DNA from: Pelosinus fermentans JBW45
GTDB taxonomy: Bacteria > Bacillota > Negativicutes > DSM-13327
Reading direction: 5' to 3'
Length of the DNA stretch: 64,000 bases
NCBI RefSeq assembly: GCF_000271665.2
Contig: NZ_CP010978.1
Span: 962,501-1,026,500 of the forward strand
Made by a program: the position numbers and the translations under genes. Within the stretch, counting starts at the first letter, position 1, and every line of letters begins with the position of its first letter. Below, one piece after another: positions 13,962-19,523 of the stretch. The notes below the pieces were generated by a model, which was given only the letters and a program-made list of their open reading frames with translations, did not search any database and was not told where the DNA came from.

Positions 13962-14230
13962 AGGTTTTTCAACCTCCTTAAAGAATAAAGTTGAAGGATT
14001 ATCCATTTCAGTCTCTCAAAGATTACATCCTTGCACGTGAAGCGGGAATAGAAGATCCCAACCAGCTAAAACGTAAATGCTTTGGAAATGGATGAATTGT
14101 CTCACGTATGGGTATAGAAAAATCTTCCCTGGGACAGGTACATTCATATCCTTCCTTCCCATTATACATAAAAGCAATTGTTCGGGTTTTTCTAGCCCAT
14201 AATGGATAACCCTTCTGTAATATATCTTAC

Positions 14231-14274
14231 AGGGACAGGGATGTTGTTTTCAATAATGAAACATAGTCCCTGTG
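14231..14274. repeat. Palindromic repeat element, copy 1
   Basis: ACAGGGACAGGGATGTTG runs through a small inner hairpin (TTCA/TGAA) to ATAGTCCCTGT. The same roughly 43-base sequence occurs identically at 16058-16100. Its outer arms (ACAGGGAC/GTCCCTGT) and T-rich end would also allow it to act as a terminator. The surrounding interval 13962-14548 holds no intact gene. Confidence 0.7.
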
Positions 14275-14320
14275 TTTTTACTAAAACCTAAACCTGCCTG
14301 CCGCTTAGCAAGTATTCCTT

Positions 14321-14361
14321 AAAAGGCGTCTTACTCTTATTGAGTGAGGCGCCTTTGTTAT
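14321..14361 (+). terminator. Hairpin upstream of the collar-protein leader
   Basis: AAAGGCGTCTTACTC pairs with GAGTGAGGCGCCTTT around a TTAT loop, then T-rich DNA. A similar hairpin precedes the second leader at 15506, so the pair belongs to a duplicated unit. Confidence 0.65.
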
Positions 14362-14366
14362 TTTTA

Positions 14367-14523
14367 TACTATCCAGAATTCAGCTTATATGTACGGATAG
14401 AGAATGAGAAATAAATTTACATTTGGTAGTTTAATTTATAGTTGCTACGGAATGTGTATTAGTGAAAGCCGATATACAGGGTACACACGGTTAAAAGAAA
14501 AGTTCCTTGGCTATGTCAGTTTA
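14367..14523 (+). ncRNA. Duplicated structured leader, copy A
   Basis: About 155 bases upstream of the tail-collar gene closely match 15552-15706 upstream of the LamG gene, including GTACGGATA, the TACGGAATGTGTA segment, AGTGAAAGCCGAT and AGTTCCTTGG. A helix TGTAT...ATACA in this copy becomes TGTAC...GTACA in the other, a compensatory change that supports RNA pairing. I do not recognise a known riboswitch class. Confidence 0.5.
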
Positions 14524-14548
14524 CACAAATAAAAGGAGAGATTACATT

Positions 14549-15397
14549 ATGACAAAATTTGAAACTAATTTATCTGGAGTAATTGAGGAGTTGCAAAATA
14601 AGGAGGTAGCGCAAGATGCAAAAGACATTGATTTACAGAATCAGATTGACAGTGAAATTGCAAAGAGAACTAATGCTGATGATCAATTGCAGACTAATAT
14701 CAACGTTGAAGCTAATGCTAGAGCTGCTGCAGACAAAGATTTACAAGGTCAGATTGACAAAGAGGTTGCAGACAGGGGAGATGCTGATAAGGTACTGCAG
14801 GAAAATCTTGATGAGGAAATAGCAGTTCGTACTAATGCTGATGAAACTGAATCAAGTACACGGGCTAGTGCAGACCAAGATTTACAGAAACAGATTGATT
14901 TTGTAATGAAATATCTTGTTCCGGTTGGTGCTATTGATTATTTTGCTAGGACATCATCACCTGAAGGTTGGCTAAAAGCTGATGGTTCGGCAGTTTCAAG
15001 AAGTGAATATGCTAATCTGTTTGCAGCAGTAGGTACTATGTTTGGTGCTGGTGATGGTAGTACAACTTTTAATTTGCCTGATCTGCGTGGTGAATTTATA
15101 CGTGGGTTAGATGATGGGCGCGGGATTGATCTTAATCGGACATTAGGTAGTTGGCAGAAACCATCTCTTGTAAATGGCGATTATAACGAAAATAAAAGCG
15201 TAGTAACGTTAGGTGGTCTTCCTCAGAATCGGTCTGTATACGGGTGGGAAGATCCGTTATCAAGTGGACATGTATCATCTGAAGGGAGTTACTGGTGGGC
15301 GCCATCAACAATCCAGGTTATGAGAGAACTGGATATGAGACTATGTGGTGTAATACGTCCCCGCAACGTAGCATTATTAGCTTGTATTAAATATTAA
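14549..15397 (+). CDS. Coiled-coil protein with phage tail-collar domain
   Basis: The 282-aa product has an N-terminal repetitive coiled coil (about residues 5-125). Units near 'DLQNQIDSEIAKRTNADDQL', 'DLQGQIDKEVADRGDADKVL' and 'DLQKQIDF' recur with roughly 20-residue periodicity. A phage tail-collar domain follows ('VGAIDYFARTSSPEGWLKAD', 'FNLPDLRGEFIRGLDDGRGI', 'WQKPSLV'). Such proteins form trimeric fibres in phage tails and are also found as stand-alone surface or appendage proteins. The ATG at 14549 has AAAGGAGAG upstream. No other tail genes are nearby, so it may be a domesticated fibre or a remnant. The leader is shared with the next gene. Confidence 0.8.
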   Translation: MTKFETNLSGVIEELQNKEVAQDAKDIDLQNQIDSEIAKRTNADDQLQTNINVEANARAAADKDLQGQIDKEVADRGDADKVLQENLDEEIAVRTNADETESSTRASADQDLQKQIDFVMKYLVPVGAIDYFARTSSPEGWLKADGSAVSRSEYANLFAAVGTMFGAGDGSTTFNLPDLRGEFIRGLDDGRGIDLNRTLGSWQKPSLVNGDYNENKSVVTLGGLPQNRSVYGWEDPLSSGHVSSEGSYWWAPSTIQVMRELDMRLCGVIRPRNVALLACIKY

Positions 15398-15505
15398 TAG
15401 TAAGAATGTGAATAGCCGTTTTGCTTCCTAATAAACCGGCAAGCGTTTGCAATTTTGAAACGTCCCTGGGATGGCCGTAAAAAAGTAAATAGAGTTATCC
15501 ATATT

Positions 15506-15543
15506 AAAGTTGCCTTACTCTTAACCGAGTGGGGCAGCTTTAA
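15506..15543 (+). terminator. Terminator after the collar gene
   Basis: AAAGTTGCC...CTC pairs with GAG...GGGCAGCTTT to give a hairpin just after the gene, matching the hairpin before copy A of the leader. Confidence 0.6.
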
Positions 15544-15551
15544 TTGTTTCA

Positions 15552-15706
15552 TACCTATCCAAAATTCGATGTAGATGTACGGATAAAAAATGAAAAACAA
15601 ATTTGCATTCAGTAGTTTAATGTTTAATTGTTACGGAATGTGTACTAGTGAAAGCCGATGTACAGGAAACATACAGTTTAATAAAGTTCCTTGGTTATGT
15701 CGGCTT
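15552..15706 (+). ncRNA. Duplicated structured leader, copy B
   Basis: This is the second copy of the leader described at 14367. It lies directly before the truncated LamG gene. The small helix keeps pairing through a T-to-C / A-to-G double change relative to copy A. Confidence 0.5.
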
Positions 15707-15728
15707 AAAAAAAATGGAGGTAATAAAT

Positions 15729-16049
15729 ATGTATGAAGTTGATCAGTATACAGTGTCGTTATTACATTTTGATGGTGGCTTAACGGATGAAAGTGGTAAG
15801 GTGTGGGCAGCGCAGAATGGGGCAACTGTTAGTACTACTCAATCAAAATTTGGTGGATCATCACTCTATCTTAATGGAATAAATCAATGCTTAACTACAC
15901 CGAATAATACTGATTTTGATTTTGGATCTGGAGATTTTACGATTGAAGGTTGGGTATGTCCAGCTTCAACAGGTAAATGGGGAGGAGTGATAGTTAGTAA
16001 ATGGTATTCAGCTGGGGAAGGTTCAAATTCATGGAGTGTTTCTATATAA
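15729..16049 (+). pseudogene. LamG/concanavalin-like surface protein, truncated
   Basis: Starting at the ATG at 15729 behind ATGGAGG, 106 codons encode the first half of a LamG jelly-roll domain ('YTVSLLHFDGGLTDESGKVW', 'KFGGSSLYLNGINQCLTTP', 'DFDFGSGDFTIEGWV', 'GVIVSKWYSAG'). LamG domains are normally about 150-200 residues; here the frame stops within a few bases of the palindromic repeat at 16054. The second half is not found downstream. It is probably a disrupted paralogous surface-protein gene with the same leader as the collar gene. Confidence 0.75.
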
Positions 16050-16053
16050 CGAA

Positions 16054-16105
16054 ACAGGGACAGGGATGTTGTTTTCAATAATGAAACATAGTCCCTGTCC
16101 CTGTT
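16054..16105. repeat. Palindromic repeat element, copy 2
   Basis: The core (16058-16100) is identical to 14231-14273, here with longer outer arms (AACAGGGACAGGG / CCCTGTCCCTGTT). It abuts the premature stop of the LamG gene. The following 125 bases up to the IS element contain no gene. Confidence 0.75.
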
Positions 16106-16333: not shown

Positions 16334-17263
16334 TTATGCTGCCAATCTATAATGATTATGGTATGCCATTGGTGTCATTACATTTAACTTGCGTTGCAGA
16401 CGTCGATTATTGTAGTAATCTACGTAATCCGTTATAGCCTCCACTAGATTATCTCTATTAGTGAAACGATGACCATAATACATTTCTCGTTTCAAAATTC
16501 CCCAAAATCCTTCCATTGGTCCATTGTCAATGCAATGGGCTACTCTGGACATACTTTGCTTCATGTGATGATCTTTTAAACGCATATGGAATTGAGCACT
16601 TGTATATTGATAACCACGGTCGCTGTGGAACAGCGGATGAGCCTCCGGTTCCAAACGAACAGCTTCATCAAAAGTATCCATAACCAATGGATTATCGTTA
16701 TGATTACTAATTTTAAAGGCTACAATTCTGCGGTCGTATAAATCCAGGATGGCACTCAGATATATCTTGTGAACTTCAATACCGATATAATATTTGAATT
16801 CAGAAACATCCGTAAGCCATTTTTCATTAGGCATATCAGCGTGGAATTCACGGTGTAAATAGTTTTTTGCGATGTGGTCCGGATTTTGAGCAGATCTGGT
16901 ACAACTTTTTGGTCTCCATTTAATGGTGGATTGAATTCCTTTGTTTCTGCAAATACGAAGAACGCGTTTATCGTTCACAACAATTTTGTAATTTACATCC
17001 AGCTCATCACGAATACGGCGGTATCCCATATCTGGATGTTGTTTATGGATAGTATATATTTCTTCCGAAATACGTTCATTCTTAATTTCACTATCACTCT
17101 TTGGATGATTGAGCCAACGATAATAAGCAGAGCGCGTGATTTTAAGATATTTACATAATTTTTTTGTTGGATAGCCTTTGGTTGAAGATAATTCCTTGAT
17201 AGCTATATAGGCTGTAAGGTACTGTACTAAAGATAGTGATCCCTCCTCTCCAGTTCCCTGACT
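16334..17263 (-). CDS. IS3-family transposase OrfB (DDE integrase)
   Basis: The frame opens at the slippery site and runs 309 codons; an internal ATG at 17029 begins MGYRRIRDELDVNY. It contains the retroviral-integrase-type catalytic core: the first Asp in 'NEKWLTDVSEFKYY', the second in 'PLFHSDRGYQYTSAQF', and the Glu in 'GPMEGFWGILKREMYYG', which is the DD(35)E arrangement. The N-terminal part 'KKLCKYLKITRSAYYRWLNH' is the usual HTH_21-like region. It is probably made as an OrfAB fusion by -1 frameshifting. Confidence 0.9.
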   Translation of the reverse strand, partial: SQGTGEEGSLSLVQYLTAYIAIKELSSTKGYPTKKLCKYLKITRSAYYRWLNHPKSDSEIKNERISEEIYTIHKQHPDMGYRRIRDELDVNYKIVVNDKRVLRICRNKGIQSTIKWRPKSCTRSAQNPDHIAKNYLHREFHADMPNEKWLTDVSEFKYYIGIEVHKIYLSAILDLYDRRIVAFKISNHNDNPLVMDTFDEAVRLEPEAHPLFHSDRGYQYTSAQFHMRLKDHHMKQSMSRVAHCIDNGPMEGFWGILKREMYYGHRFTNRDNLVEAITDYVDYYNNRRLQRKLNVMTPMAYHNHYRLAA

Positions 17264-17913
17264 TTTTTTAACAGATCATTCTCCATTTGTAGATCGGTGT
17301 TCATTCGTTCCAACTCTGCAATCTTATCCCGTAGCTCTTCTTCTGGACTACGACTTGGCTGCGAACCAACACGGTGACCACGTCTGTCTTCAAGTCCAGC
17401 CCTTCCCATATCTTCATACTTTTTGACCCAGTTTCGAATCTGTTGATAAGAACAATTGTATTTGCTTGCCATTGCTCCATAGTTTTTATCATTCATTAAA
17501 CAATCCTTGACTACCTGTAATCGTTCTTCAGGAGTTGTTGTTCTTTCTTTTGTCATGTATGTACCTCCAGTGGATTCTTTAAGTATTCCACCAGAATTAT
17601 ACACCTTTATCCAATCACAAAGTTGCTTGTTAGAACGAATATCGTACTTTTGACAAATGTCACCAAGTGATCCTTTTCCACTCAGATAGTCATTAACCGC
17701 ATTCATCTTTAACGTTTTTGAATAACTTCGGTTCTTGGTTTGATTAAGCAATCCGATAGGACCTTCTGCTTTATATATTCGCACCCATCTCTGCACACTT
17801 TGGTAGGCTACGTTTGCAATTCTTCCCGCTTGTCTAATGCCAATTTTGCCATTCAGGTATCGTTCAACAATTTTTACTTTTTCTACTGGATCAATCTTAC
17901 TTTTTCTAGACAT
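17227..17913 (-). CDS. IS3-family transposase OrfA (DNA-binding)
   Basis: The 228-aa protein has two to three helix-turn-helix units ('GIRQAGRIANVAYQSVQRWV', 'SLGDICQKYDIRSNKQLCDW', 'NYGAMASKYNCSYQQIRNWV') and a C-terminal leucine-zipper-like helix ('ELRDKIAELERMNTDLQME'). This is the layout of IS150-group OrfA, which binds the element ends and multimerises. The end of the gene overlaps OrfB in the -1 frame. Confidence 0.9.
   Translation of the reverse strand: MSRKSKIDPVEKVKIVERYLNGKIGIRQAGRIANVAYQSVQRWVRIYKAEGPIGLLNQTKNRSYSKTLKMNAVNDYLSGKGSLGDICQKYDIRSNKQLCDWIKVYNSGGILKESTGGTYMTKERTTTPEERLQVVKDCLMNDKNYGAMASKYNCSYQQIRNWVKKYEDMGRAGLEDRRGHRVGSQPSRSPEEELRDKIAELERMNTDLQMENDLLKKVRELERRDHYL
17263..17269 (-). 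promoter_or_regulatory. Programmed -1 frameshift site of the IS3 element
   Basis: On the minus strand the codons CTG TTA AAA AAA GTC contain A AAA AAA, a canonical slippery heptamer. A one-base slip back joins OrfA to the OrfB frame, which is open from this point. GGAGAGGAGG lies about 10 bases downstream; it could not be an upstream stimulator, but might allow separate OrfB initiation. Confidence 0.7.
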
Positions 17914-19289: not shown

Positions 19290-19408
19290 ATAAAAAAAGC
19301 CTAAGAGATATTATTAAATATCTCCCAGGCTTTTATCCCTCCGTGTACACAGTCAACTGTGCGTTTTCTCTCGGACCTGCCAGTTACAAACTGCGGAACC
19401 CTAGAAAA
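19290..19408 (-). promoter_or_regulatory. ykkC-class riboswitch with terminator
   Basis: Read on the minus strand the leader has CTAGGGTTCCGCAG, GGTCCGAGAGAAAACGC, and ACACGGAGGGATAAAAGCC followed by TGGGAGA. These are the conserved blocks of the ykkC RNA superfamily (guanidine-I, and the variants sensing ppGpp, PRPP or nucleoside diphosphates). The last block also forms the 5' arm of a terminator (AAGCCTGGGAGATATT / AATATCTCTTAGGCTT, at 19298-19332) followed by Ts, giving ligand-controlled read-through into the radical-SAM gene. I cannot assign the ligand subtype by eye. Confidence 0.85.
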
Positions 19409-19523
19409 CTTAAATATACAATTAAATTATGATTTACAAATCTAAAATCGTAAATTAATTCTAGCATAACATTAAGATTAAATCAACCATATGCCTTCCT
19501 TCGCCAAATTTTGCATTCTGTAA

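Follow-up and report, generated by a model that had tools for sequence, protein, structure and literature searches.

The window, a 64,000-nucleotide stretch of the Pelosinus fermentans JBW45 chromosome, contains two copies of a leader sequence lying directly upstream of two genes, all on the forward strand. By BLAST, the first copy (window 14330-14538) aligned with the second (15514-15719) at 79% identity over 214 columns (E 2e-34), and a repeat comparison of the two yielded 127 nt at 81% identity besides further blocks. This bears out the original prediction of a repeat of some 155 bases, together with a hairpin preceding both copies. In copy 1, a terminator-like hairpin with a T-rich tail (14318-14361; fold -25.1 kcal/mol) is followed by a TACGGATA motif (14392-14399), a putative -35 box GTTTAA (14429-14434), a putative -10 box GAATGTGT (14450-14457), the 5' and 3' arms of a long hairpin, P2 (14466-14481 and 14504-14522), and a Shine-Dalgarno AGGAG identified from sequence (14534-14538). 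The gene that follows (14549-15397; 282 aa) is of the phage tail collar or tail fibre type (PF07484, E 1e-22; PHROG tail collar fibre, E 2e-40). Copy 2 is organized in the same order, with a terminator-like hairpin at 15502-15550 (fold -25.4 kcal/mol), TACGGATA at 15578-15585, an exact match to the putative -35 box GTTTAA at 15615-15620, a putative -10 box GAATGTGT at 15636-15643 (assigned by motif match and between-family identity), P2 arms at 15652-15667 and 15688-15706, and a Shine-Dalgarno GGAGG, again from sequence, at 15716-15720. It precedes a truncated LamG-type gene (15729-16049), which encodes 106 aa as compared with approximately 270-480 aa in its relatives and matches the LamG-like family PF13385 below that family's cut-off; this gene may be dead. 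The presence of a phage tail collar domain in one product and a LamG-like domain in the other confirmed that the genes behind the leaders are unrelated. Neither lysis genes near the two window copies nor phage structural genes beside them were seen.

Several other features were noted around these genes. A perfect 45-nt direct repeat occurs at window 14229-14273 and 16054-16098, the second copy lying within a palindrome and adjoining the truncated end of the LamG gene; with both window copies counted, this repeat is found at eight places in the genome. A transposase pair, comprising an rve integrase core and an HTH ORF, is located near the truncated gene (16334-17913, reverse strand), and a Guanidine-I riboswitch lies further along (19320-19415, reverse strand; 86 bits).

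Further copies of the leader were recovered from the same genome by DNA search. Using a covariance model (R1) built from nine leader copies, we detected eight copies in this genome and found the leader in seven of 10 genomes of the family, that of P. fermentans included. At E 0.01, 23 of 300 genomes of the class gave matches, a count that includes the organism's own genome and one hit (L152) which was treated as false, being an ordinary terminator hairpin. A sample of 298 other genomes of the phylum gave no match at E 0.001, in a search whose filters were stricter and which weak copies may escape. Among named genomes, the exact core was matched by a single stretch in Sporomusa malonica and by two in Lucifera butyrica. 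The copy-1 leader had no match among the phages and plasmids of INPHARED and PLSDB, and an exact 20-nt core was found on two IMG/VR contigs only; a phage or plasmid origin of the leader was rejected on this basis. In what follows, counts over 78 copies leave out L152 together with eight hits that were weak or partial (ids 79-86), all of which are included in the 87-row helix counts, and the tree-based test was performed on 77 rows, one further row having been dropped as redundant. A plain segment duplication, with no further copies and no covariation, is not what was found, given the copies in relatives and the double changes in P2 described below. The duplicated leader is a real element and consists of two parts, a promoter-like motif and the long hairpin P2. 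What stands of the original prediction is a selected cis-element recurring before surface- or tail-type genes; the particular helix that it named and the suggested switch do not.

The promoter-like motif, GTTTAA-N15-GAATGTAT, has a fixed spacing and a randomized spacer sequence. Measured from the model start, 65 of the 78 copies have GTTTAA, with no more than one mismatch, at position -20 exactly, while no other offset accounts for more than five. In 21 genomes from nine families, between-family identity was 0.78 and 0.86 in the two boxes, as compared with 0.32 in the 14 nt between them, 0.31 in the upstream flank and 0.38 over the opening 60 nt of the genes. Two boxes held at a set distance around a free spacer are the arrangement required of an alternative-sigma promoter, and roughly half of the conserved leader sequence would be better explained as promoter. 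The exact motif was found at 95 sites in 45 of the 300 class genomes, where the reversed pattern gave 19 sites; in the P. fermentans genome, allowing one mismatch gave 57 sites against 47 for the control, which is near the control level. Promoters of the sigma-28 type have the pattern GCCGATAT, and a promoter of this type was considered and dropped by eye, the TAAA partner at 15 nt not being fixed.

A terminator-like hairpin was detected within 170 nt upstream of 43 of the 78 copies, as opposed to 10 of 78 random stretches, and many of these modules would therefore open a new transcript. The remaining 35 copies had none according to the scanner, which passed over the window's own two upstream hairpins because their T-tails are broken. 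The TACGGATA motif, seen in 18 of the 78 copies, forms part of a more extended conserved region, in most cases 50-58 nt ahead of the model start, and also occurs close to some other motif sites; it may be an activator site.

The same motif accompanies a sigma-70-family factor gene that is conserved in the class and, in the P. fermentans genome, stands upstream of DUF1659, DUF2922 and YvrJ (PF12841) genes. At 24 of 27 loci of sigma orthologues, the motif was found at the gene's 3' end or immediately past it, with a spacer of 15 nt in all 24, and at 23 of these a DUF1659-like start was located by eye 22-32 nt past the motif. The motif lies inside the sigma gene at 17 of the 24 loci, outside it at three and over the last codons and stop only at four; coding is therefore no explanation at these last seven. 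Among genomes with a sigma match at E<1e-20, a cut chosen after the lists were known, 34 of 38 carried the motif; of the other 262 genomes, 11 did so (Fisher 8e-31). With the threshold used in the search, 1e-12, the corresponding figures were 35 of 97 and 10 of 203. Hence the motif is shared with the sigma-linked operon and co-occurs with the sigma gene, the exceptions being 11 genomes with the motif and no strong sigma match, and four sigma-bearing genomes without the motif. There is also a leader-type sigma paralogue, which has regions 2 and 4 on one polypeptide. At one locus of genome G000 (L014, C1:231,535-235,200), three consecutive leaders occur with two beta-helix genes and one 66-aa ORF; the locus also carries a leader-type sigma paralogue, the only full-length copy found in that genome.

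The second part of the leader, P2, was assessed for pairing and covariation. In the 87-row alignment, which was fitted to P2 and favours it, 91.1% of 1355 cells were paired, 15 of 16 pairs exhibited double changes, and none of 500 shuffles reached any of five measures. When the partner strand was slid, pairing fell to 31-47%. In the 78-row count (total 1237 cells), 969 cells were Watson-Crick, 168 G-U and 100 other, and A-C cells numbered 32; such a preponderance of G-U over A-C cells is what an RNA, rather than a DNA dyad, would show. Covariation thus supported P2, although single pairs failed the tree-based null: on 77 rows no pair was found at E<1, and the best result overall was an apical stem extension of P2 at E of about 3. 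A helix kept through changes on both sides, as in a conserved structured 5' UTR element, was accordingly observed, with the tree null unbeaten.

Cargo genes, defined as ORFs of at least 100 aa starting no more than 60 nt from the leader, were present behind 63 of the 78 leaders; the other 15 include some with shorter or later ORFs and some in which the gene has apparently been lost. Pfam searches at E 0.001 identified LamG in 21 of the 63 genes, fn3 in 16, phage collar in nine, CE2_N in seven and gp53-like in five, the rest being SPRY (three), arabinofuranosidase (two), beta-helix (two), and GH53, RCC1 and lipase (one each). With LamG, fn3 and Collar as the leading families, the expectation that the downstream genes would be surface- or tail-like was upheld. 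On a simple hydropathy scale, a hydrophobic N-terminus was found in one of 62 cargo proteins, and by this test the cargo is without signal peptide. A C-terminal domain of approximately 72 aa (DSSEREY...KEYLxFEKIISFKV) is common to 33 of the 63 proteins, as judged with a model seeded from 12 members of the same cargo set, and has no name in the cargo Pfam table. This domain was seen on unlike N-terminal modules (L117, L118, L119, L140, L146, L149, L160 and others) and could be an anchoring or export tag. Two N-terminal modules, MSYNSNLPxDNTxxIRENFRALKEDKIVAA and MSRTVxxxEEIIVVSEGKxDIGKLA, were also recurrent, with varied C-termini (L110-L113, L157, L158, L146 and others).

In several genomes, the genes following a motif site encode a holin (PF05105), an amidase or a GH25 protein, and Pfam searches on the lysis genes tested returned Phage_holin_4_1, Amidase_3, GH25 and Amidase_2. 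When 20 further motif sites were inspected by eye, lysis genes (holin, amidase, lysozyme) were found at five (L230, L231, L232, L244, L246), the DUF1659 operon at three (L242, L243, L247) and a membrane-anchored protein at three (L228, L234, L245), with no fitting downstream gene at nine. The protein at L228 belongs to PHROG 37316, and those at L234 and L245 were likened to it by eye; these conserved membrane-anchored proteins are perhaps spanin-like. At 48 loci comprising lysis, sigma-operon and other motif sites, the P2 model found no match in 47. The exception, L232, resembled P2 weakly (27.9 bits, E 0.004) before a 431-aa ORF followed by holin and amidase genes, and the split between hairpin and lysis genes is therefore not absolute. 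In the P. fermentans genome, the motif precedes an amidase cassette (C1:5,297,170) located 5 kb from an RCC1 cargo leader; its holin was weakly recognized using PHROG, and no phage tail or structural genes were seen beside it. The PF05105 holin was present in 16 of 26 genomes searched, the single one of P. fermentans (C1:1,859,972) lying away from known leaders. In the relative G006, the module ends a complete prophage with portal, capsid, head decoration, baseplate and GH25 genes, in which a one-base variant of the motif lies before the lysis genes.

We consider it probable that the leader is the promoter-leader of a regulon under an alternative sigma factor, one that would link lysis genes of the phage type with cargo that can be swapped. 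From the leader copies, their fixed spacing, the conserved helix, the shared motif and the gene content, we infer the following course of events. The terminator-like hairpin would close the upstream unit, making each copy a transcription start module. The promoter, with -35 GTTTAA and -10 GAATGTAT 15 nt apart, would be read by an alternative sigma-70-family factor, either the conserved chromosomal one before DUF1659-DUF2922-YvrJ, or the paralogue whose 3' end overlaps the module, or both. Transcription is predicted to start near AGTGAAAGCC, a few nt before P2, and the mRNA would therefore open almost directly with P2 (AAGCCGAUAUACAGGA / UCCUUGGCUAUGUCGGUU), after which would come a short linker rich in A, the Shine-Dalgarno sequence and the gene. 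The regulon would comprise the sigma-linked operon, lysis cassettes that are usually without the hairpin, and hairpin-led, signal-less cargo, i.e., tail-fibre, lectin-like and glycan-active proteins. With lysis units and cargo in one regulon, the cargo and the means of its release, presumably by lysis, would be made together. P2 itself most likely protects or tunes the cargo mRNAs as a 5' hairpin and, as a by-product, the conserved leader may serve as a homology handle for duplicating or swapping cargo genes.

A bolder version of this reading can be put forward only tentatively, and we regard it as rather doubtful. According to this version, a chromosomal sigma factor in outer-membraned spore-formers would run a domesticated phage export programme, made up of lysis genes and scattered, swappable tail-fibre, lectin and glycan-active cargo; a single trans-acting factor would recognize all cargo mRNAs by P2, serving as an RNA tag, and this tag would have had its mobile seed in the sigma gene's own 3' end.

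We also weighed whether the leader might be a cis-acting regulatory RNA proper, i.e., a riboswitch or a protein- or sRNA-binding leader, in which P2 and its conserved loop (ACACACA, AUAAGAG) would sense or bind some partner and control translation of the cargo. Such a reading is consistent with the conservation of P2 and its loop edges between families (identity 0.82 and 0.73 in the arms and 0.57 in the loop), and with the association of P2 with cargo leaders, given the single weak match among the 48 other loci. P2 is, however, a single simple helix. At the gathering score nothing in Rfam matched the leader; at E 10, the leader region gave six weak matches of eukaryote-type snoRNA, miRNA and lncRNA, none of them a riboswitch. 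With no known aptamer family matched, a riboswitch by homology was rejected. By eye, there was no U-tract after P2 to suggest an expression platform but an open A-rich linker leading to the Shine-Dalgarno sequence, and neither a conserved alternative pairing with the Shine-Dalgarno sequence nor a terminator past P2 was seen. The distance from the model end to the start codon, measured for 64 of the 78 copies, is 18-37 nt. No switch is indicated for the leader, contrary to the original suggestion of a possible undescribed riboswitch, and we judge a regulatory RNA of this kind to be unlikely.

The leader could alternatively be a functionless plain duplication, or what erosion has left of a sigma gene's 3' end, transported passively as genes were shuffled. 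Some leaders do coincide with the 3' ends of sigma genes, whether live or eroded: homology to the sigma gene was found upstream of 38 of the 78 leaders, extending over at least 60 aa in 11 and barely exceeding the element in many others, and in G020 sigma genes with near-full reading frames end in the element. Moreover, over 244 nt copy 1 is 92% identical to a leader located 300 kb from it; the likeness stops where P2 ends, and the genes that follow are unlike. Against an absence of function, conservation between families is confined to the boxes, the stretch behind them and P2, with the spacer and flanks at the random level, and the spacing is kept in 55 of 67 copies without long sigma homology. 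Nor is the mini-ORF MYISESRYTG kept. This candidate leader peptide drew attention as the ending of a live sigma gene; it was rejected, as an ATG is present in 67 of the 78 copies with widely varying lengths, six of which stop after codon 6. We therefore hold a functionless origin to be very improbable. Under the preferred reading of a promoter-leader, the promoter and P2 would have arisen in the 3'-terminal part of a sigma gene that preceded a cargo gene, and would then have been copied with and without the sigma gene, selection keeping the leader while the sigma parts decayed.

Equally improbable, in our estimation, is a DNA element, either an operator with the dyad TGTATAT-N12-ATATACA or a recombination site for gene cassettes: the dyad is paired in 90% of cells, tandem element-plus-gene arrays occur in several genomes and near-identical leaders precede unlike genes, yet the covariation of the dyad is no better than that of shuffles, P2 accepts G-U pairs and loop lengths of 10-25, and a second half-site was found within 60 nt at none of the 24 sigma-locus motifs, so that the dyad halves look separately conserved, as -10 box and P2 5' arm. 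The same bases form the helix first described for this locus (P1). The change from TGTAT/ATACA to TGTAC/GTACA around AGTGAAAGCCGA is literally present in the two window copies, but the helix in which it lies is not the conserved one. Both registers of P1 were counted on 87 rows and were unsupported: in one, 90% of cells were paired with covariation equal to that of shuffles (110 of 500), and in the register as drawn, the score was reached by only three of 500 shuffles, but one of the five pairs fails in 68 of the 87 rows. P2 is longer and draws on the same bases, and the two helices compete; the P1 halves look like the -10 box and the P2 5' arm.

The promoter-leader regulon has partial parallels in known systems. 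Clostridial loci are described that combine a sigma factor, a holin, an endolysin and signal-less cargo, namely TcdR/TcdE with large toxins and UviA/UviB with the bacteriocin Bcn5 (PMC9527704). The likeness lies in a small sigma-70-family factor, holin and endolysin genes and signal-less cargo. The differences are that the cargo consists of many unlike tail-fibre, lectin-like and glycan-active proteins distributed round the chromosome, that the motif is GTTTAA-N15-GAATGTAT and that the cargo leaders have a common hairpin. A further difference from the clostridial loci is that the host class, the Negativicutes, has an outer membrane. Promoters of TcdR have been studied by reporter assay (PMC10223161). 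SigO-RsoA of Bacillus subtilis includes a yvrJ operon (PMC8103513); linkage of the sigma factor to a YvrJ-family gene is shared with that system, but SigO-RsoA has two subunits, whereas regions 2 and 4 are here on one polypeptide. The layout resembles the clostridial sigma-holin-endolysin loci, and the YvrJ link recalls SigO-RsoA. Among the papers listed for these gene families, sigma-holin-endolysin loci and Negativicutes riboswitches, no title or opening of an abstract described such a system.

Stabilizing hairpins at the 5' end are known in bacterial mRNAs. Like these, P2 is expected a few nt from the start site and upstream of the Shine-Dalgarno sequence; unlike them, its sequence is conserved across nine families and is associated with a single promoter-like motif. 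The gene types are also those of phage late lysis and tail-fibre modules, and one copy lies behind prophage tail and lysis genes, whereas the window copies and the amidase cassette of P. fermentans have no visible phage structural genes beside them.

If the promoter-leader reading is true, dozens of orphan tail-fibre, LamG and fn3 genes, together with the little-studied DUF1659/DUF2922/YvrJ operon, would form one regulon with a readable promoter. The clostridial sigma-holin-cargo layouts would gain a candidate counterpart in a class with an outer membrane, and a hairpin leader would become available whose function is directly testable. The leader would also offer an example of a promoter that, having lain within the 3' end of a sigma gene, outlives that gene.
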